This document shows, one piece after another, positions 2,272 to 12,115 of a stretch of 64,000 bases of DNA. Made by a program: the position numbers and the translations under genes. This DNA is from Candidatus Limnocylindrales bacterium (GTDB lineage: Bacteria; Moduliflexota; Moduliflexia; Moduliflexales; JAUQPW01). The notes under the pieces were generated by a model. That model was not told the DNA's origin, did no database searches, and saw only the letters and a program-made list of their open reading frames with translations. The stretch's first letter is position 1. The number at the start of each line of letters is the position of its first letter. The stretch is taken from contig DATMBG010000050.1 of assembly GCA_035559535.1 (NCBI GenBank), positions 1-64,000 on the forward strand, read 5' to 3'.

Positions 2272-3177
2272 TTATCTGTATATTCCCATGTCTCCATGCC
2301 TCCACGTATGGTATTTATCTATCAGGTGCTCTACGATTTTCTCTGCAATATTTATCGGAGTTGTTTGTTGTAACCCGGCCCAGCCTGGGATGCTGTTGAC
2401 TTCAATGAGATAATATTGACCGCCGGTGGATCTGAGTATATCTACACCGGCATAGTCTACCTGTAGGAGGTGACAGGCCTTTAAACTCATTTCAACCAGT
2501 TGATCCTCCAAAACATAAGGCTCAGCCGTAGCGCCTCGGGCGATATTTGTTTTCCAGGTATTTGAACGTCGAATCATAGCCGCCACAACCTGGTTTCCTA
2601 CCACAAAGGCCCGAATATCGTAATTATCATGGGGGATATATTCCTGCAGGTAGAATACATAACCCCCGAGTTCCAAAGCCCGGAAGGTCCGATATGCGAT
2701 ATCTTCATCGCAAATTCTAACCATTCCTTTGCCTCCCGACCCAAATAAAGGTTTTACAACCACATCTCCCAACTCTCGGAAGGCCTTCATGGCATCATCA
2801 AAATTCTCGGCTACAATGGTTTTAGGAGTTAATATTTTATTATCTTCTAATATAGCAGAGGTATAGTATTTGTCCACCGTTTTCTCAATGGCGGCAGGTG
2901 CGTTCATTACCATGACACCCAGGTCTTCCAGTCGGTGCAGTACGTCCATTCGGAAGATGATCTGCTCCAGAGAGCCACCGGGAATAATTCGAACTAGGAG
3001 GGCCTGGTAGTCTTCGAGTTGCTGATCTTCAACAGTAACCCTGGGTTTATCAGAAACCCTGGCCATTAACCTTGTAATGGGAAAACAATGGGATAAAATA
3101 CCTCTTTGAGTAAGGGCTTTTTGAAGGGATTCAATGTGCCAGCCAATTTCAGAAGTGAGGATACCGACTTTGATCAT
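2272..3177 (-). CDS. RimK-family ATP-grasp alpha-L-glutamate ligase
   Basis: The 301-residue ATP-grasp protein has the RimK layout: an N-terminal pre-ATP-grasp region, a central ATP-binding region (VVKPLFGSGGKGMVRI) and a C-terminal metal-binding catalytic part (YAGVDIL...YLIEVNSIPGWAGLQ). Enzymes of this family add glutamate to peptides or cofactors. In archaea and H4MPT-using bacteria, relatives glutamylate tetrahydromethanopterin (MptN type) or F420. Its place after mch and the Fhc genes supports a role in H4MPT or methanofuran tailoring, but that substrate is inferred. The start overlaps the stop of the upstream kinase gene (ATGA). The last codons lie in a CATGGAGACATGGG-like repeat remnant (about 2285-2310). 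Confidence 0.85.
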   Translation of the reverse strand: MIKVGILTSEIGWHIESLQKALTQRGILSHCFPITRLMARVSDKPRVTVEDQQLEDYQALLVRIIPGGSLEQIIFRMDVLHRLEDLGVMVMNAPAAIEKTVDKYYTSAILEDNKILTPKTIVAENFDDAMKAFRELGDVVVKPLFGSGGKGMVRICDEDIAYRTFRALELGGYVFYLQEYIPHDNYDIRAFVVGNQVVAAMIRRSNTWKTNIARGATAEPYVLEDQLVEMSLKACHLLQVDYAGVDILRSTGGQYYLIEVNSIPGWAGLQQTTPINIAEKIVEHLIDKYHTWRHGDMGIYR

Positions 3178-5369
3178 GGGGTTATGGCAGGAGGTTTATC
3201 TTGATAAATAGCCAGATTATGTAATAACTTACTTAACTCTTCCCATCGGTAGGGTTTAGCAATAACGCCACTAAATCCGTATTGTTGGAAGTTAGCCATG
3301 ACCGGGTCATTGGAGTAACCACTGGATACAATGGCTTTGACGTGGGGATCTATTTCCCTCAATCGGGCGATGGCTTCTTTACCTCCCATCCCACCCGGGA
3401 CGGTTAAATCCATAATCGTTACCTGAAAGGGTTGTCCGAGTTCTTTAGCTCTCTGATAGAGTTGGATCGCTTCAGAACCATCTTTAGCAACTTCTACCTG
3501 GTATCCCATATAACTCAACATCTGGCTAACTGCTTCGGTAACAATGTCTTCATCATCCATAATCAAGATCTTCCCCTTACCTGAAGGAGGATTTTCTTCT
3601 ACTCTTTTCTCTGTCGGGATATGCTTCTGCGAAGCAGGAAGATAAAGATGGAAAGTTGTTCCTGCTCCTAATTTAGACTGTGCGGTAATATACCCGTCAT
3701 GTTTCTGGATAATTGAATATACTGTCGTAAGCCCAAGACCACTCCCCTTCTCTTTGGTTGTAAAATAAGGATCAAAGATCTTAGTCAGGTGCTCTTCGGG
3801 TATACCCACGCCTGGATCTTTTAAGGATATTTTTATATAATTTCCGGCGGGCAGAGGCAACCCTGAGCCGGCTTCTTCTACACCGATCACCACGTTCTCA
3901 CCGTATATTTGAATAACTCCTCCCTGGGGCATGGCTTGTTGGGCATTGATAACAAGATTATGGATTACCTGGGTCATTTGTCCTTCATCCACTTCTACCG
4001 GCCAGAGGTCCTCTGAAAGGAAAAATTCACATCGCACGGGGGAACCTCTGAGGACAAAATTTACCGAATCTTTGATTAATTGGGCTATGGAAATCGTTTT
4101 CTTTACCGGTAACCCTCCTTTAGAGAAGGTAAGCAATTGTTGGGTTAAATCTTTTGCCCGCAGAGAAGCTTTTTCCGCTTCGGTAAGTCTTTTGAATACC
4201 TCTTCTTGAGGATAAGCGCATTTCTTGGCCAAAGAGATATTCATCAAAATAGCGGTCAGAATATTATTAAAATCATGGGCGAGGCCACCGGCCAGGACAC
4301 CTATAGATTCCAGCTTACTGGCTTTCAGGCGCTCTTCTTCTATTTTTTGCTTTTCCGTGATGTCCCGAAAAACCAAAACTACCCCGATAATCTGACCTTT
4401 TCTATTTCGAATGGGAGCTCCGCTATCTGAAATAATTCGCCGGGTTCCATCTCTGGCTATAAGAACGGCAGGGTAGGCAAGATCGGTAGGGATCCCGGTT
4501 TTTATTACTTTTTCTACGGGATTTTCATAAGGTTCCTGGGTTTTATCCTGAACAACATGAAAGACCTCTTGCAAAGGCTTACCTGCAGCTTCTTGTTGAG
4601 TCCAACCGGTCAGTTTTTCTGCAACAGGGTTGAGTAAAACGACTTTTCCTTCTATATCGGTGGTAATAACCCCATCTCCAATGGAACATAAAGTCACGAC
4701 CAACTGCTCTTTTTCGGCAGCCAGGGCCTCTTCAGCCTGTTTACGCTCGGCTAATTCTCGCTGTGCCGAGGTGTAAAGTAGCGCATTGTCCAGGGCGATG
4801 GAAGCCAATTGGGCAAATCGATTCAGTAATTCAATCTCCTCGTCTTTAAAAGCCCGACCTCTCTCAAGATAGGCTAAACCCAATACGCCTACTACTTTGG
4901 ATCCGGATTTAAGCGGTACCCCGACCACAGCTCGAAAGTCGTCAATAGGGGAATTTGGCAAACGACCGGACCAGGTATGATAGTCCTCTACTACCAGGGG
5001 TTGACCGGTTAGCCAGACTTTTCCGATTAAGCCTTCCCCAGGTTTATGCCGAAAGCCAATATGATGGCTATAAATTCCCGTGCCTATCTTCATAACCGTT
5101 TCTGCTTCTCCGGGTTCAACCAGATGAATATATCCATGGGGGGTTCCTAATAACACACCGGCACGTGTGATAATCGCTTCAAGCAAATCGTTCAACTCCA
5201 ACCGATTCATCAAAGCAAGGGTAGTTTCATGTAAAGCAGCCAGATAAGAATGCTGTTTGCGGAGCTTTTCCTCTACCCCTGCATGCTTCTTTTTCAACTC
5301 GGTTATTTCCTTACGAAGGGCCGCCAATTCCTCTAACAATTGTTCCTTTGTTTTATTTTCTTCTTCCAT
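3174..5369 (-). CDS. Hybrid sensor histidine kinase (coiled coil, GAF, PAS, HisKA, HATPase, receiver)
   Basis: A soluble 731-residue hybrid kinase with no membrane segment. In order: a charged coiled coil (1-40), a GAF domain (about 50-200), a PAS domain (about 220-345), a HisKA dimerisation domain with phospho-acceptor His in GLAHDFNN (about 365), an HATPase domain with DPGVGIPEE and GSGLGLTTVY boxes, and a C-terminal receiver (about 600-720) with its acidic pocket in MDDED, phospho-acceptor Asp in IMDLTVPGG and a conserved Lys (AKPY). It would sense a cytoplasmic ligand or redox signal, but no DNA-binding output is encoded next to it. It overlaps the rimK-like gene by 4 nt and starts about 120 nt after mch, so it may be co-expressed with the C1 genes. 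Confidence 0.9.
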   Translation of the reverse strand: MEEENKTKEQLLEELAALRKEITELKKKHAGVEEKLRKQHSYLAALHETTLALMNRLELNDLLEAIITRAGVLLGTPHGYIHLVEPGEAETVMKIGTGIYSHHIGFRHKPGEGLIGKVWLTGQPLVVEDYHTWSGRLPNSPIDDFRAVVGVPLKSGSKVVGVLGLAYLERGRAFKDEEIELLNRFAQLASIALDNALLYTSAQRELAERKQAEEALAAEKEQLVVTLCSIGDGVITTDIEGKVVLLNPVAEKLTGWTQQEAAGKPLQEVFHVVQDKTQEPYENPVEKVIKTGIPTDLAYPAVLIARDGTRRIISDSGAPIRNRKGQIIGVVLVFRDITEKQKIEEERLKASKLESIGVLAGGLAHDFNNILTAILMNISLAKKCAYPQEEVFKRLTEAEKASLRAKDLTQQLLTFSKGGLPVKKTISIAQLIKDSVNFVLRGSPVRCEFFLSEDLWPVEVDEGQMTQVIHNLVINAQQAMPQGGVIQIYGENVVIGVEEAGSGLPLPAGNYIKISLKDPGVGIPEEHLTKIFDPYFTTKEKGSGLGLTTVYSIIQKHDGYITAQSKLGAGTTFHLYLPASQKHIPTEKRVEENPPSGKGKILIMDDEDIVTEAVSQMLSYMGYQVEVAKDGSEAIQLYQRAKELGQPFQVTIMDLTVPGGMGGKEAIARLREIDPHVKAIVSSGYSNDPVMANFQQYGFSGVIAKPYRWEELSKLLHNLAIYQDKPPAITP

Positions 5370-5492: not shown

Positions 5493-6473
5493 TCACATGG
5501 TAGTAACAGAACACTCAGATTCTTGGAATAAGGAGATGGCCAGGAGTCTTTCGTTGATCTGACCGGCTTGAAAAACTTTTCCACTGGAGATGTTATTCAA
5601 CGTTATTCGGGCAGGGCTAAATAGGAGCGGATCTATTTTGTAAAAATCTTGATAACGGCGAAAGAGTTCGTAGAAGGGAATGCCGTAATCTTTGGAACTT
5701 GAAGCGGGTATCTGGGTTAGGATTTGGGTAATTTCTGAATCGCTACCCTCCAGGGTGTAATAGGCTTCTCCACCGTATAAAATACAATCATTGGTTCGAC
5801 CGATAGCCTTTAAAGGGTTCTTTATGACAGGGGCTATAGGACATGTGCCGGACCCGGTCAGGATTTTATTGAGATCAAATCCTAATTCGAGCATTTTATG
5901 CAAACCGGTCTCCACAACCCGAGCCGCGATCTGAATAGATCCAACCAAACTGTCGGTGGAAGCAACGATGATGGAGAGATTTTCCGGTTTAATGTGGCAT
6001 TTTTCTGCAATAAATCGGGCTACTTCGACGCCGGGTAAACCGGAACTTTCCAGGGCGATCACGGCGGTGGAAGATTCTTCTTGATAATCGATCTGAGAAA
6101 ACAATTTTTCTACCCGGGCAAGGAGCCTGGCCGGACCGGAACCCATAGCCAGATAGTTATCGATTTCTATCTTCCACCCGGCGTATTGAGAAGCCATACA
6201 TCCAAGAACCGGCCAGTCGACGACGACCTGAACTCCTGGAAGGGAAAGTTCCTTTAGATGGATTTGGGTAAACTGAACATTCCCCAGACCTCCCAGGCAA
6301 ATCTCCGCAAAATACTTTCCCACCGTCCAACTTCCCACGCTTTCAACCCCGGCATCGATAACTGTAGTTCCATTAGACAACGTTATAACCCTCACTTTGA
6401 GGAACTCTGCATTGGCGACGACGTAATCAAAAAGTTTACGGGCGTTCTGGTTCAGGTTTAGGTTTAACTTCAT
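5493..6473 (-). CDS. mch: Methenyl-H4MPT cyclohydrolase
   Basis: Mch reversibly converts 5,10-methenyl-H4MPT and water to formyl-H4MPT in the pterin-linked C1 pathway. The 326-residue length matches the family. Recognisable blocks are the N-terminal LNLNQNARKLFDY, the GLGNVQF and PVLGCMASQYAGW segments, LAMGSGPARLL and the C-terminal GSGTCPIAPV and GRTNDCILYGGEAYYT. The start ATG overlaps the fhcC stop as ATGA, so the two are translationally coupled. The pathway partners Fae and MtdB are not in this window. Confidence 0.95.
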   Translation of the reverse strand: MKLNLNLNQNARKLFDYVVANAEFLKVRVITLSNGTTVIDAGVESVGSWTVGKYFAEICLGGLGNVQFTQIHLKELSLPGVQVVVDWPVLGCMASQYAGWKIEIDNYLAMGSGPARLLARVEKLFSQIDYQEESSTAVIALESSGLPGVEVARFIAEKCHIKPENLSIIVASTDSLVGSIQIAARVVETGLHKMLELGFDLNKILTGSGTCPIAPVIKNPLKAIGRTNDCILYGGEAYYTLEGSDSEITQILTQIPASSSKDYGIPFYELFRRYQDFYKIDPLLFSPARITLNNISSGKVFQAGQINERLLAISLFQESECSVTTM

Positions 6474-7276
6474 GCAGCAAACTCCAATATTTCCCCTTTA
6501 CCCAATTCACTGATATCCCCATGGTAACGTCTATAGGGTCCTTTAAGGTATTCTTCTTTAATCGAAATCCCCTGTTTTTTCAAAAAGTGGAAATAAACCT
6601 TTAGAAAGTCTGGAGTATAAGTCGTATCATACTTAAAAGTAGGGAGTAACGAGACCGGATTAAAGGTCACGATGGTTCCTCGCCGCATACCGGCTCCCGT
6701 TCTGGCACCTAGAGTTCCAAAGACAAAAATCGTTCCGGCAATCATATAACTTCCGGTAAAGTCTCCTGCATTTCCCAGAATTACGATAAGGCCTCGCCGC
6801 ATAAAGCTTCCGACCTCATAGCCTGCATTTCCTTCAACAATAATCGTTCCCCGGTTCATTCCGACTGTCGTTCCTCGATAAACCCCTCCCACCCGGTTTC
6901 CGGCATTTCCTTTGATACGGATAAGTCCACCTGTCATCTCTGCCCCTACCCAACTATCGACGTCCCCTTCCACAAAGATTTCCCCACCTTTCATGAAGGC
7001 TCCCAGGTGTAACCCTACATTCCCTTTGATGGAGATCTTACCTCGGCTCATTCCAAAGCCGATTTTCTTAATCTTGGATAAGTCCCCTTCCAGGTAAATC
7101 TGATCGGATTTTTCCCCCTCTACCTCGAAGACTTCCCCCAACTTTTTTTCTTTATTCCCATAATAAAGGGGTAAACCACAAAGCTCGGCGTGGGTTTTAT
7201 CAAAGAAGATATCCGGTGAGATAATCTCAGCTTCTATGGGAATATCGTATTTCTCCTTGAGTTTGAGTAAAATCAT
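6470..7276 (-). CDS. fhcC: Formyltransferase/hydrolase or formylmethanofuran dehydrogenase subunit C
   Basis: The 268-residue protein is built of glycine-rich repeats of about 19-20 residues (pattern G-N-x-G-x-x-x-G-x-x-M-x-x-G) covering residues about 75-215. This is the right-handed helix fold shared by FwdC/FmdC and the glutamate synthase C-terminal domain. In Fhc/Fwd complexes this subunit scaffolds subunits A and D and helps channel formate. It lies between fhcD (8-nt gap) and mch (4-nt overlap) in an obvious operon. Confidence 0.94.
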   Translation of the reverse strand: MILLKLKEKYDIPIEAEIISPDIFFDKTHAELCGLPLYYGNKEKKLGEVFEVEGEKSDQIYLEGDLSKIKKIGFGMSRGKISIKGNVGLHLGAFMKGGEIFVEGDVDSWVGAEMTGGLIRIKGNAGNRVGGVYRGTTVGMNRGTIIVEGNAGYEVGSFMRRGLIVILGNAGDFTGSYMIAGTIFVFGTLGARTGAGMRRGTIVTFNPVSLLPTFKYDTTYTPDFLKVYFHFLKKQGISIKEEYLKGPYRRYHGDISELGKGEILEFAA

Positions 7277-7284
7277 AACCGATT

Positions 7285-8187
7285 TTATTCGAGGATTTTG
7301 CGCAGGTAAAAGTGATACTTTCCCAGTTTTCCGCCGTAATTTCCGGCCGATATTTTTTTGATCCCCGGGATGCAGGCGGCTTGAATTCCGGCTTTCATAG
7401 CAGCCCCGATGGCTTCCGGAGTCGTACCGTCGATAACGATTTCTAAAACCGAGTTTACGTCATCTGGGACCTGGGAAGGGGTCTGCCTACGAATGGTTGG
7501 GCAAAAGGCCGTGTTGGAAGAGGCGACCAAAAACTTATACCTGGAGCCTACTTTACTTCCACTTCGTACTATCCCTCCGGGAAAAGGCATAATGACGCCG
7601 GGTATTTTTTTCATGGCGTCAACGGCTCTTTCGGCGGCTTCCAGGGTAATTTCTACCTGTTCTCCCATGATAAAAAAATTACCACCCCCCACGGCAGATT
7701 TTATCCCAAATTTATCCTCAACCAGAAATTCCCCGTCCATGACCGGAATCCGCCAGAATCGCCGTTCCCGATTACCGTTAATGGCAGCATCAATGACTTT
7801 ACTGATTTGAAAACCATCCCCGAAAAACCGAAGTTTACCTCCCACCGAAACCCACTCCTCTCCTTCCAGATTATTAAAGCAAGCCGATGTCGGAGAGGTC
7901 ATAACAGATTGGCCAATCCGTTGGATGAGCTGGCCTTGAAGATTCTTTTTGGAAGTTCCAAAGAAGAGAACATTAACTCCCGGACGACCATCTGGAGTTT
8001 CCTGGGTTTCAATCCCCTCAATCCCGGCTTCACCACCACAACCGATAACAGAAGTGGCAAACCCAGTCATACTTCGGGCTGCCTCAAAGGCCCACTTTTC
8101 ATTCAAAGCCGTAATCAAAACCCGGCTGACCTGCATGGCAAAAGCTTCGGCATAGGTATCTTCGATAAATACGCCGTTGATTTCCAT
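7285..8187 (-). CDS. fhcD: Formylmethanofuran:H4MPT formyltransferase
   Basis: The 300-residue protein matches Ftr/FhcD, which moves the formyl group between H4MPT and methanofuran. Supporting blocks are the N-terminal INGVFIEDTYAEAF, ARSMTGFATSVIGCGGEAGIE, PTSACFN, the FGDGFQ region, MPFPGGIVRSGSKVGS and C-terminal NYGGKLGKY. Length is normal. It starts next to a repeat hairpin (8208-8295) and has no clear Shine-Dalgarno, so translation may depend on transcript context. Confidence 0.95.
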   Translation of the reverse strand: MEINGVFIEDTYAEAFAMQVSRVLITALNEKWAFEAARSMTGFATSVIGCGGEAGIEGIETQETPDGRPGVNVLFFGTSKKNLQGQLIQRIGQSVMTSPTSACFNNLEGEEWVSVGGKLRFFGDGFQISKVIDAAINGNRERRFWRIPVMDGEFLVEDKFGIKSAVGGGNFFIMGEQVEITLEAAERAVDAMKKIPGVIMPFPGGIVRSGSKVGSRYKFLVASSNTAFCPTIRRQTPSQVPDDVNSVLEIVIDGTTPEAIGAAMKAGIQAACIPGIKKISAGNYGGKLGKYHFYLRKILE

Positions 8188-8207
8188 TTAAAGAAAGGAC
8201 CGAGAAA

Positions 8208-8295
8208 GTATGGGAGTGTGGAAGTATGGGAGTATGGAAGTGTGGAAGCATTTACTCCCATACTTCCACACTTCCATACTCCTATACCTCTATAC
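8208..8295. repeat. Octamer tandem-repeat hairpin (GTRTGGRA family), copy 1
   Basis: Five head-to-tail 8-mers of the form GT[AG]TGG[AG]A (8208-8247) are followed by an 8-nt spacer and about five 8-mers in the reverse complement (8256-8295), giving a long imperfect stem-loop. It fills most of the 144-nt gap between fhcA and fhcD in an otherwise tight operon. Related elements occur at 13801-13898, 36444-36479 and 53381-53453. Confidence 0.85.
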
Positions 8296-8331
8296 TCTTC
8301 GTGGATTTTTAAAAACTGCAAACGCAGGGAG

Positions 8332-9957
8332 TTAACTAGATACTTTTACACTCTCATACCTGGTAAAAGTTTCCAATCCGGTAGGGTAATTCGAAAACTC
8401 GACCGTATAGTATTTTTCAAAATCGTCTCGGATTTCATTCTGAAAAGCTTTATTTTCAGGCAATTCCACGAAAATTGTTTTTCCTGTCCAGTCCTTTAAA
8501 ATCTGTCCTTCCTGTAAAATAACCTCTCCTTCCTTGAGGACATAGACCGGCCTTTCAAACATTTCCTCTTTGTTCTCCAATTTTGGGTAAAGGACAATAT
8601 CTGCATCGGCTCCAACTCCGAGATGGCCTTTATGGGTGAGGCCCAGGGCCTTTGCGGGACCTGCTCGGGTAATGATAGCAATTTCGTAAAGGGAATATTC
8701 CCGGGTAATGTGAGGCAAGACGGTGTCCTTTAAAACTCTCCTATGAACCCGCTTGATCATTTCATCTCGAAAGTTTTTATCCATCAGCAGACGGATGATA
8801 TAAGGGTAAAAAATAAAAGGTCCTCCGTTGGGATGGTCTGTGGACATAAAAACCTGCCAGGGATTTTTGATGAGCAAAAAGAGTTCCAGGCCGATAGCCC
8901 ATTGAATGGCATTAACAAAATTCTTTTCCTTATATACGTAAGGAACGATTCCACAGCCCGATTCCAGTTCTACGTCACTGTTGTACCACTTTTTTTCAGA
9001 AATTTTATGGAGGCGATACTGCCAGGGCCCATCGGCAGTCATGGTCGTAGTATCTCCAAAGATGATCTGGCCGACATCAATGGTGGCGTGGGAGTGTTGA
9101 TTAAGATATTCGGCAATTTCAGGAGCTTTGGAGGCAAATCCACCCCAGTTTTCCCCGCCGTAGCTATGGAATTGAACATGGGTTAAATGAACCCGTTTCC
9201 CTTCCAGGGCATGTAAGGTTTCTAAGGTTGTTCGATAATTACCCGGCACCCCTAAGTTGTTACAATGGATATGCACGCCATGGGGTAAATGGAGATCTTC
9301 ATTAATCTGAGCTAAAGCGGTAAGAATCTGTCGGGGTGTGACGTCAAAATGGTTGACCTTATCATCCAGTCCCGATACATCTTGACCATATTTCCAATTC
9401 TCAACGCCACCCGGATTTACTATCTTAATGGCATAACCCTTTGTTGCATTGAGAAGCCAGGCGGTGTAATCCCTGGCCTTTTCATATTCCCCTTTCTGCA
9501 GGTATCTCAGAATAAACTCATTGTTCCCCAGAACGATATAACAGCCCTTATCGATCATGGGGGTATCGTTGAGTTCTTCATGGGTATGTCGGGCTCCAAT
9601 GGGAGGAACAGCCGCTTCCATAACTGTGGTATAGCCCAATTTTGTATAAAGGTAACCCGTTGCAAAGGTAGAAGGAATAGTATACCCGGTTCCGGATCGG
9701 GTGATCCTGGTTTTTGGAATTACCATTCTTCGATGATCTTCTGGTCTCAGTCCCCGTCCGGCATTAACTTTAAGCCCGGAGATATGGCTGTGGATATCTA
9801 TACCTCCCGGCATCACGACCAGATTTGAAGCGTCTATGATTTCAGCCGTGTTCGGTACTTCGTCAACGATTTTACCATCTCGGATACAAATCTCCTTGAT
9901 GACCCCGTTAATTCCATTTAGGGGGTCATAAACTTCCCCGTTAATAATTTTAAGCAT
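8332..9957 (-). CDS. fhcA: Formylmethanofuran dehydrogenase/hydrolase subunit A (amidohydrolase)
   Basis: A 541-residue amidohydrolase-superfamily protein. Subunit A hydrolyses formylmethanofuran to formate and methanofuran at a metal centre. The expected ligands are visible: HSH at 56-58, Lys178 in YAIKIVNPGG (candidate carboxylated Lys), the HIH pair at 229-231 and Asp374 in STDHPNGGPF. The C-terminus carries the usual amidohydrolase beta-strand segment (GHLGVGADADIVL). It follows the small membrane-protein gene by 13 nt. Both archaeal FwdA and bacterial FhcA fit; the metal ligands argue for an active enzyme. Confidence 0.95.
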   Translation of the reverse strand: MLKIINGEVYDPLNGINGVIKEICIRDGKIVDEVPNTAEIIDASNLVVMPGGIDIHSHISGLKVNAGRGLRPEDHRRMVIPKTRITRSGTGYTIPSTFATGYLYTKLGYTTVMEAAVPPIGARHTHEELNDTPMIDKGCYIVLGNNEFILRYLQKGEYEKARDYTAWLLNATKGYAIKIVNPGGVENWKYGQDVSGLDDKVNHFDVTPRQILTALAQINEDLHLPHGVHIHCNNLGVPGNYRTTLETLHALEGKRVHLTHVQFHSYGGENWGGFASKAPEIAEYLNQHSHATIDVGQIIFGDTTTMTADGPWQYRLHKISEKKWYNSDVELESGCGIVPYVYKEKNFVNAIQWAIGLELFLLIKNPWQVFMSTDHPNGGPFIFYPYIIRLLMDKNFRDEMIKRVHRRVLKDTVLPHITREYSLYEIAIITRAGPAKALGLTHKGHLGVGADADIVLYPKLENKEEMFERPVYVLKEGEVILQEGQILKDWTGKTIFVELPENKAFQNEIRDDFEKYYTVEFSNYPTGLETFTRYESVKVSS

Positions 9958-9970
9958 AGGTCGACTTCTT

Positions 9971-10429
9971 TTAAGTTTGATCTCTCTTAATGATAAAGGA
10001 TCCTATGAGTTCGGCGAGGTAACCCAGGATCGGTCCGATAATTACAGCCATTATACTATGCCACCATGGATCTCCCCTAAGAACTGTTCCAAAATGAATA
10101 GCCGCTCCACACAGGGCAGCCGTAATGAGAGACAGAAACCATAGAGCCGTTTGAGCGTAGATAATAAGAGTTGTTACCCCTACAGCCACAGGAAGATTAT
10201 ACCGACCCAACCCCAGTTCTGTAAAAATCCACATGGTCAAGAAGATCCAAAGAATGCCGGATAGCAGGGTTACAAGAACTTTCCAAAGCCCGTCCAGTTT
10301 TCCGGCTGTTGCGAAAAAACACCCCGTAGCGATCATTACCTGCCATATCGGATAGGCGTGACGTATGGCGATGAAAGTCCAAATACCCAACAAGAGTCCC
10401 AGGATAATGCCAGATATGATCCGTGACAT
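9971..10429 (-). CDS. DUF1097-like small integral membrane protein in the C1 operon
   Basis: The 152-residue protein has about five hydrophobic segments and resembles DUF1097 proteins (N-terminal small-residue helix, then a cysteine-containing helix followed by a Gly-rich turn), whose function is not known. It sits between fhcB (68-nt gap) and fhcA (13-nt gap) on the same strand, an unusual place for a membrane protein. A role in transport or in anchoring the C1 complex is possible but not shown by the sequence. Confidence 0.7.
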   Translation of the reverse strand: MSRIISGIILGLLLGIWTFIAIRHAYPIWQVMIATGCFFATAGKLDGLWKVLVTLLSGILWIFLTMWIFTELGLGRYNLPVAVGVTTLIIYAQTALWFLSLITAALCGAAIHFGTVLRGDPWWHSIMAVIIGPILGYLAELIGSFIIKRDQT

Positions 10430-10497
10430 GGGAGTAGAGTAAACAGCGAGGATAGAAAATAGAGAACTCCAGACCGGACTCTTCAGTCCTCCATCTT

Positions 10498-11784
10498 CTA
10501 TGCTCGGTTTTGTAGTTTTGACCGGACCTTTTCAATGATTCGTTCCAGAACTTCTCGATCGGAAGGATAGGGGGAATCGACGACTTTTTTGACGGGAATA
10601 GGGATATGATCCATCCGATATGCCAATCCTGGGGCACTAATTCCAGCCTGAGCAGTAGGGATAACCACGGTAGCTATTTTAGTGGTCATACTTTCTTTAG
10701 CATCTATGGCAATGGTTGGGATACGCGATAAATGTTCGGCAGCGGCTCTAGGAAAGTTGGCGAAGGCATCCGCAGCAATGATGAGGGCAGCGTCGGCTTC
10801 TCTTCGAGCCAGAAGATCGACGGAACTGAACTCTCCAGGATTATATTGGGGAAACCCTCTACTGAGGTTTACCGCAAAGGGATAGCCCGTCTGCCAGGTT
10901 AAAACGGTGGCAATTCCTACTACATTTCCATGACCTCTCATGGGAGAGGCTACTACCTTGGTAAATCGGTTAAGATCTCTGGCCAGGAGTAAGAGAGCCA
11001 TAACGTTCATATGTTTCCCCCGGCTCATGGTAAGGCCCATCCCCCAGTGAATTGAACCGAATTTGCAGGTCTTAAGCTTCTCAAGGAGAGATTTTAAGAT
11101 CGGGATCGGTACCCCTCCTACCTCTTCCACCTCCAGTTCTTCCCCTTTCAAAAGAGCCCGCATTGCCGTTAGAACCTCGTAGTCCGATCCGGGTCGGATC
11201 TGGATAAACTGATCCGCTGCCTTGGCACTGGGGGTTTTTCGTACGTCTACCAGAATGACCTGCCGGTCCTTTTTCCCTTTCGGCACGAAATACCCTTTAG
11301 GGGTTACCGAATATCGCGTAAAATGTCGCGGGTGTGCTTCAGCCGGATTACATCCCCAAAAAACCAGCAAATCTGCCCGGTTTTTTATCTCACCTAAGGT
11401 ACACGTAGAGTCTCCCACAATCTGAATAGCCTGAAGGGAAGGACTATGGCATACCGATGAAGTGGTATCGATGCTCGCACCGATCAGATCTGCTAGCTCA
11501 ATAGCTTTTCGCTGGGCATTACACTCCGTAGAAGCCAGACCGTAAATAAGGGGAAAATGGGATTGGGAGAGAATTTCCGCAGATGCTTCAATACACGCTT
11601 CTATAGAAGCTTCCTTACCTTTAATACGTGGGGTTGCTACATCTACTTTATGATTCATAAAAGTCGCCTTACCTAAGATACAGGCATTCTTTACTTCCTT
11701 AATCGTATCTCCTTCTACGAAGACTTCCAGGTCATCGCAGGTAACCCCACAAAATAAACACGTTACATCACTTATTTTCTCCAT
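10498..11784 (-). CDS. fhcB: Formylmethanofuran dehydrogenase subunit B (molybdopterin-type, FwdB/FhcB)
   Basis: A 428-residue member of the molybdopterin oxidoreductase superfamily. The N-terminus has Cys9, Cys12, Cys16 and Cys35 (CxxCGxxCDD...NAC), the spacing for a [4Fe-4S] cluster in FwdB. The segment TSSVCHSPS places Cys112 where archaeal FwdB has its Mo/W-ligating Cys. Length is close to archaeal FwdB, from memory. Methylotroph FhcB is generally described as having lost the metal centre, so keeping these residues beside a FwdD-like gene suggests a redox-active dehydrogenase. The gene overlaps the FwdD-like gene by 17 nt. Confidence 0.9.
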   Translation of the reverse strand: MEKISDVTCLFCGVTCDDLEVFVEGDTIKEVKNACILGKATFMNHKVDVATPRIKGKEASIEACIEASAEILSQSHFPLIYGLASTECNAQRKAIELADLIGASIDTTSSVCHSPSLQAIQIVGDSTCTLGEIKNRADLLVFWGCNPAEAHPRHFTRYSVTPKGYFVPKGKKDRQVILVDVRKTPSAKAADQFIQIRPGSDYEVLTAMRALLKGEELEVEEVGGVPIPILKSLLEKLKTCKFGSIHWGMGLTMSRGKHMNVMALLLLARDLNRFTKVVASPMRGHGNVVGIATVLTWQTGYPFAVNLSRGFPQYNPGEFSSVDLLARREADAALIIAADAFANFPRAAAEHLSRIPTIAIDAKESMTTKIATVVIPTAQAGISAPGLAYRMDHIPIPVKKVVDSPYPSDREVLERIIEKVRSKLQNRA

Positions 11785-12115
11785 ATTTTTCTATCTCGAC
11801 CTCCATACCTTTAGAATCCGGCATGCCAATACTTTGGGTATCGGTTCCTATAAGGGAACTGACCGGTAAACCGTAAGCTAAAAAAATAAGCCCCTCCGGA
11901 ATATCGGATTTTTTACATTTTAAAATAGCCCTTCCATACTCAGACTTCACAAGGATAAGATCTCCATCCTGAAGGTTTTTTCGCTTCATATCCGCCTCAT
12001 TCATCTCTACTGTGGAGGTCTCTTCAACAAATTCCGGAGATTCTTTACCCACATGGATCGTAGTACCCTGCTTGGTAGTACGCCCTGTAATGAGTATAAA
12101 TTTTGACTGAGACAT
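11768..12115 (-). CDS. fwdD: FwdD/FmdD-like molybdopterin-dinucleotide-binding subunit
   Basis: The 115-residue protein has the small beta-barrel style of the molybdopterin-dinucleotide-binding domain that is a separate subunit (FwdD/FmdD) in archaeal formylmethanofuran dehydrogenase: ILITGRTTKQG, the N-E-A-D segment, LQDGDLILVKSEYGRAILK and a conserved GLIFLAYGLPVSSLIG loop. I chose ATG 12115 (MSQSKFILITG) because a G-rich sequence lies just before it and the upstream codons look non-coding. It is the first gene of the operon. Canonical bacterial Fhc operons lack this subunit, so its presence supports the dehydrogenase reading of fhcB. Confidence 0.8.
   Translation of the reverse strand: MSQSKFILITGRTTKQGTTIHVGKESPEFVEETSTVEMNEADMKRKNLQDGDLILVKSEYGRAILKCKKSDIPEGLIFLAYGLPVSSLIGTDTQSIGMPDSKGMEVEIEKYGENK

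Follow-up and report, generated by a model that had tools for sequence, protein, structure and literature searches.

A bacterial fwdDBA-ftr-fwdC-mch operon from a Moduliflexota genome retains the predicted active-site residues of archaeal formylmethanofuran dehydrogenase

Does a bacterial operon for formyl-methanofuran metabolism encode a redox-active formylmethanofuran dehydrogenase (Fwd/Fmd), as in archaea, or a metal-free formyltransferase/hydrolase complex (Fhc), as in proteobacterial methylotrophs? This question is raised by a locus in a 64,000-nucleotide stretch of DNA (the window; contig DATMBG010000050.1, positions 1 to 64,000, assembly GCA_035559535.1) from a Candidatus Limnocylindrales bacterium that is placed in the Moduliflexota. 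Its genes, encoded on the minus strand between 12115 and 5493, run in the order fwdD-fwdB-(DUF1097)-fwdA-ftr-fwdC-mch. A first-pass annotation had proposed that they encode a redox-active dehydrogenase that may also work in the CO2-fixing direction. Gene order, residue conservation, phylogeny and pathway genes together indicate that the operon probably encodes a genuine bacterial Fwd along with Ftr and Mch, which would carry out the last steps of formaldehyde oxidation linked to tetrahydromethanopterin (H4MPT) and methanofuran.

Active site and phylogenetic position of FwdB

When FwdB, the predicted catalytic subunit, was compared with solved structures, it matched archaeal FwdB with 441 bits (8rja_B) and 429 bits (5t5i_B), scores that exclude a chance resemblance, whereas FhcB of Methylorubrum (6s6y_B) reached just 68 bits. 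The identities are 51, 49, and 45% with the solved archaeal proteins, compared with 22-29% for FhcB from proteobacteria. The cysteines singled out by the first-pass annotation (C9, C12, C16, C35, and C112 in the motif SVCHSPS) are borne out, as they align with the residues of 5t5i, 8rja, 7bkb, 9sfi, and 9sw6, and H113 and R283 likewise have counterparts in the solved archaeal proteins. The 9sfi sequence shows an X where Cys112 aligns, which we take to be selenocysteine (Sec), a residue known for archaeal FwdB. In contrast, six proteobacterial FhcB proteins have A, S, or G at position 112, L or V at 113, and G or A at 283. Five of the six retain the four N-terminal cysteines; these had been read as an archaeal-type mark and are present here, but they are not diagnostic. 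Because they persist in FhcB proteins without C112, H113, and R283, the iron-sulfur (FeS) cysteines alone are no evidence for a working metal site, and we dropped them as a test for the metal center. By alignment, the residues that separate predicted Fwd-type from proteobacterial Fhc-type proteins are C112, H113, and R283.

The fwdD-like gene was also correctly placed at the start of the operon: its product contains PF01568 and matches the FwdD chains of archaeal structures (E 1e-17 to 6e-10), with a match to NF042908 that is below the cut-off. The gene is absent from the annotated proteobacterial fhc operons examined. The first-pass annotation had described the loss of both the metal site and FwdD as general for methylotrophic Fhc; this holds for proteobacterial Fhc, but both are retained in Methylomirabilota, Hakubella, Chloroflexi, Planctomycetes, and others (PMC7325909, PMC4807772, PMC5020050).

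On the FwdB tree, the window sequence groups with Methylomirabilota and one Acidobacteria metagenome-assembled genome (MAG), with support of 98/98. It falls outside the Fhc clade, whose proteobacterial members lie together beyond a branch with 100/100 support and a length of 2.5; these sequences are long-branched and odd in composition, and their exact attachment is unsure. The nearest named homologues of FwdB are in other phyla, and bacterial FwdB has been ascribed to transfer from archaea (PMC10100899). Homologues of MoaA, MoaC, MoaE, MobA, MoeA, and ModA are also encoded in the genome, which is 5.6 Mb in size and 95.8% complete, in line with synthesis of a bis-pyranopterin guanine dinucleotide cofactor. 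Since the catalytic residues are kept, FwdB is positioned outside Fhc, and molybdopterin genes are present, the redox activity proposed by the first-pass annotation is supported, and a metal-containing, redox-active FwdBD module is well supported as a prediction from sequence.

Searching plasmids with FwdB returned only distant Fhc and other molybdenum enzymes, and phages gave no match. Plasmid-borne proteobacterial FhcB proteins at loci L134:2718-3995, L135:2626-3978, L137:2706-3995, L138:3971-5269, and L139:2950-4251 still have all four FeS cysteines but no longer the metal ligand, the His, or the Arg; the retained cysteines may represent a leftover cluster in a metal-free complex.

Exchange of cysteine and selenocysteine among relatives

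Among public genomes, the 80 fwdB genes closest to that of the window were chosen partly by the motifs FCGxxCDD or PMRGHxNV and are thus biased towards intact sites; all 80 have the four N-terminal cysteines, H113, and R283. Position 112 is Cys in 56 of them and an in-frame TGA, read as Sec, in the other 24. In the TGA-containing genes, the frame remains open to full length after the TGA, and most have a stem-loop downstream of it. SelB was found in all ten tested genomes with such a gene, and control genomes with Cys also have SelB. The tree implies four or more changes between the Cys and Sec states. Given that Cys and Sec switch with each other and with no other residue in this biased set, the simplest explanation is a metal ligand in use. 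Of the 77 testable relatives, 68 have fwdD immediately upstream of fwdB, as recounted by tblastn, and mtd adjoins the operon in some; the neighbor tables are approximate, as a simple open reading frame (ORF) caller gave shadow ORFs in high-GC loci.

The TGA lies at the predicted tungsten or molybdenum (W/Mo) ligand position in L069:8316, L079:2872, L073:8319, and 21 planctomycete loci (e.g., L068:8331 and L102:8340), and the hosts are Nitrospinota, Moorella sulfitireducens, and many Planctomycetes. The planctomycete cases are already published; we found no mention in the literature of those in Nitrospinota and Moorella sulfitireducens. Two fwdB-fwdA pairs lie close together in L068 and L051, which are from a planctomycete (one pair with TGA) and an Undinarchaeales MAG.

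The window operon is a well-supported new example, not a new kind of system, because bacterial fwdDBA-ftr-fwdC operons with intact sites have been published. Candidatus Hakubella has such an operon with an intact Cys (PMC7325909), fwdD has been reported in Synergistetes, Firmicutes, and NC10 (PMC5020050), and Planctomycetes carry a Sec-containing fmdB and an fmdDBAC operon that is also found in M. oxyfera (PMC4807772). The operons of Hakubella (PMC7325909), Methylomirabilis, and Planctomycetes (PMC4807772, PMC5020050) are like that of the window in gene content, gene order, catalytic Cys, and the lack of FwdFG; the window differs in its inserted DUF1097 gene, in Cys instead of Sec, and in a host whose lineage has been sparsely sampled. 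Hakubella has the Wood-Ljungdahl pathway and reportedly lacks methanopterin biosynthesis genes, whereas the window genome has H4MPT genes and gave no match to acetyl-CoA synthase (ACS).

The archaeal complexes of Methanothermobacter wolfeii (5T5I) and Candidatus Ethanoperedens thermophilum (8RJA) share subunits A, B, C, and D with the window, including a FwdB that is 49-51% identical, the four FeS cysteines, the catalytic Cys, His, and Arg, and the FwdA motifs. Unlike these, the window operon is without FwdF/FwdG or FwdI, is joined with ftr and mch, and has a bacterial host; the archaeal setting is methanogenesis or alkane oxidation, and that of the window is formaldehyde oxidation. Fhc of proteobacterial methylotrophs (6S6Y, Methylorubrum extorquens) has the A, B, Ftr, and C subunits in common with the window, as well as a role in the closing part of formaldehyde oxidation via H4MPT; it differs in that its FhcB has lost the metal ligand along with the His and Arg and in the lack of a fwdD gene.

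Operon layout and genome context

The operon lies exactly at the coordinates given by the first-pass annotation, which did not mention the DUF1097 gene, and the genes are closely spaced (Table 1). The fwdD and fwdB genes overlap by 17 nt, with AGGGGGG upstream of the ATG, fwdC and mch overlap by 4 nt, and the other gaps are short, with a maximum of 144 nt between fwdA and ftr. The dinuclear-site motifs of FwdA (HxH, Lys, His, and Asp) align with those of 5t5i_A. A second genome of the genus has an identical arrangement with 91-98% protein identity, and all genes are intact here. The DUF1097 gene is also present between fwdB and fwdA in that genome (91%); as a conserved operon subunit it was ruled out, as the 80 related loci yielded no convincing homologue (best E 0.92).

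Table 1. Genes of the fwd operon and its downstream neighbors in the window
Gene	Position	Strand	Length (aa)	Predicted product	Matches
fwdD-like	11768..12115	(-)	115	Molybdopterin-dinucleotide-binding domain protein	PF01568, 51.9 bits (above cut-off)
fwdB	10498..11784	(-)	428	Predicted catalytic W/Mo subunit	TIGR03129, 552 bits
DUF1097	9971..10429	(-)	152	Membrane protein, between fwdB and fwdA	PF06496, 71.9 bits
fwdA	8332..9957	(-)	541	Dinuclear-metal amidohydrolase subunit	TIGR03121, 801 bits; 5t5i_A, 585 bits
ftr/fhcD	7285..8187	(-)	300	Formyl-methanofuran:H4MPT formyltransferase	TIGR03119, 420 bits; PF01913; PF02741
fwdC	6470..7276	(-)	268	Subunit C	TIGR03122, 275 bits; PF01493
mch	5493..6473	(-)	326	Methenyl-H4MPT cyclohydrolase	TIGR03120, 402 bits
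Histidine kinase	3174..5369	(-)		GAF/PAS-type histidine kinase with receiver domain	
mptN-like	2272..3177	(-)		H4MPT:glutamate ligase (RimK family)	NF040720 (MptN), 277 bits (below cut-off of 350)

Two genes downstream of the operon is an MptN-like ligase gene, for which NF040720 is the top NCBIfam match; its homologues adjoin the operon in loci L026, L037, L073, L093, and L097, and it likely belongs to the same functional set. Between it and mch is a gene, assigned to the histidine kinases by its sequence only, that overlaps the ligase gene by 4 nt; it may encode a one-carbon (C1) sensor.

Elsewhere in the genome, genes for a formaldehyde-activating enzyme (Fae) and an Mtd homologue are side by side on contig C44, together with MfnD-, MfnE-, MfnF-, and MptA-like genes, and contig C34 carries genes for RFAP synthase, a dihydropteroate-synthase-like protein, and a CitG-like protein. 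The genome has biosynthesis genes for both methanofuran and H4MPT. Its RpoB gene is about 59-65% identical over the main segment to those of several bacterial phyla, Methylomirabilota among them, and does not point to a single host phylum. Methanol/ethanol-type dehydrogenases dependent on pyrroloquinoline quinone (PQQ) gave at least eight single-segment matches above the family cut-off, four of which have the WDxD motif of lanthanide enzymes, and three split matches pass when joined. They are unusually numerous for one genome and are spread over contigs C44, C40, C51, C10, C22, C37, and others (L142-L149). The genome also encodes a RuBisCO large subunit and CofG, CofC, and CofD for F420 biosynthesis. 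On contig C2 (L132:3287-9704), cofG and cofC are beside the genes of an NAD-type formate dehydrogenase (FdsA- and FdsB-like), possibly linking C1 oxidation to F420. Collectively, these results indicate that the host is a formaldehyde-oxidizing, Calvin-cycle bacterium, which is possibly methylotrophic.

Oxidation of formyl-methanofuran to CO2 and its alternatives

From these data we infer a route in which formaldehyde, probably supplied by the PQQ-dependent alcohol dehydrogenases, would be condensed onto H4MPT by Fae and oxidized by Mtd, after which Mch would hydrolyze the product to formyl-H4MPT and Ftr would transfer the formyl group to methanofuran. At the predicted dinuclear metal site of FwdA, formyl-methanofuran would be hydrolyzed to formate, which would move inside the complex to FwdBD. 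There, a W/Mo-bis-pyranopterin held by Cys112, together with His113 and Arg283, would oxidize formate to CO2, and the electrons would exit via the FwdB [4Fe-4S] cluster to an acceptor encoded elsewhere, such as a ferredoxin or an F420-linked protein. The resulting CO2 could enter the Calvin cycle. Oxidative use of Fwd has been demonstrated in ethane-oxidizing archaea (8RJA, PMC11493965), and the archaeal electron partner is modular, being a polyferredoxin, a heterodisulfide reductase, or, in the oxidative 8RJA, an F420 module (PMC11656701, PMC11493965).

Several observations weigh against this route. The operon has no FwdF/FwdG or FwdI electron-transfer gene, and no CxxCxxCxxxC ferredoxin motif was found within the window, to which the search for an electron module (FwdG/FwdF, HdrABC, or FwdI) was confined. 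The motif-based choice of the 80 relatives favors intact sites, glycine-containing planctomycete homologues have been reported (PMC4807772), and we found no biochemical proof of activity in the literature for any bacterial member. The genome also encodes the FdsAB-like formate dehydrogenase, so a formate-releasing route would be no dead end. The complex might then be an Fhc-like hydrolase whose formate is oxidized by that separate NAD-type enzyme, as in Methylorubrum. Such a hydrolase would suit the order A-ftr-C, which is the same as in Fhc, the lack of a dedicated electron acceptor in the operon, and a published reconstruction for Methylomirabilales, in which formaldehyde is converted by H4MPT to formate and formate is passed to formate dehydrogenase (PMC10406867). 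However, C112, H113, R283, and FwdD, which are all lost in proteobacterial Fhc, are all kept here, and repeated Cys/Sec exchange at position 112 would be difficult to account for if no redox chemistry took place there; we regard the hydrolase as unlikely.

The CO2-fixing direction suggested by the first-pass annotation, whereby CO2 would be reduced to formyl-methanofuran and then carried towards methylene-H4MPT or acetyl-CoA, is not supported and appears quite improbable. Archaeal homologues do run reductively, the enzyme is reversible in principle, and the F420 biosynthesis genes are present, but the role would be without a downstream pathway, because CdhC/ACS (PF03598) had no match in the 95.8%-complete genome, with archaeal controls positive. 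Moreover, Fae, Mtd, and the PQQ alcohol dehydrogenases point to formaldehyde oxidation, RuBisCO is available as the likely CO2-fixing enzyme, and the reaction needs about -0.53 V (PMC11656701), for which no low-potential donor module is linked to the operon. The least probable explanation, to which we give very little credence, is that the operon was acquired laterally and is unused, or is a non-functional remnant. The operon occurs in just one of the three closest genomes from the order, that of the same genus, and the placement of its nearest named homologues in other phyla would agree with transfer; however, the conservation of every gene between the two genomes of the genus and the full cofactor biosynthesis sets argue against decay.

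Taken together, these results favor a formylmethanofuran dehydrogenase acting in the oxidative direction. We put at about even the chance that it represents a wider variant of bacterial methylotrophy, in which a W/Mo Fwd carries H4MPT-linked formaldehyde oxidation straight through to CO2 and very low-potential electrons pass to ferredoxin or F420 through an undescribed bacterial module; the variant would extend to Methylomirabilota-like bacteria, Planctomycetes, and others for which the pathway is commonly shown with formate as its end point. The contrast with proteobacterial Fhc offers a clean natural series for the loss of a metal site in a metalloenzyme. Should the bacterial complexes prove to be dehydrogenases, the last step assigned to many non-proteobacterial methylotrophs, formate release, would be wrong, and electrons would be recovered at about -0.53 V, which would alter their energy balance and electron-carrier needs.

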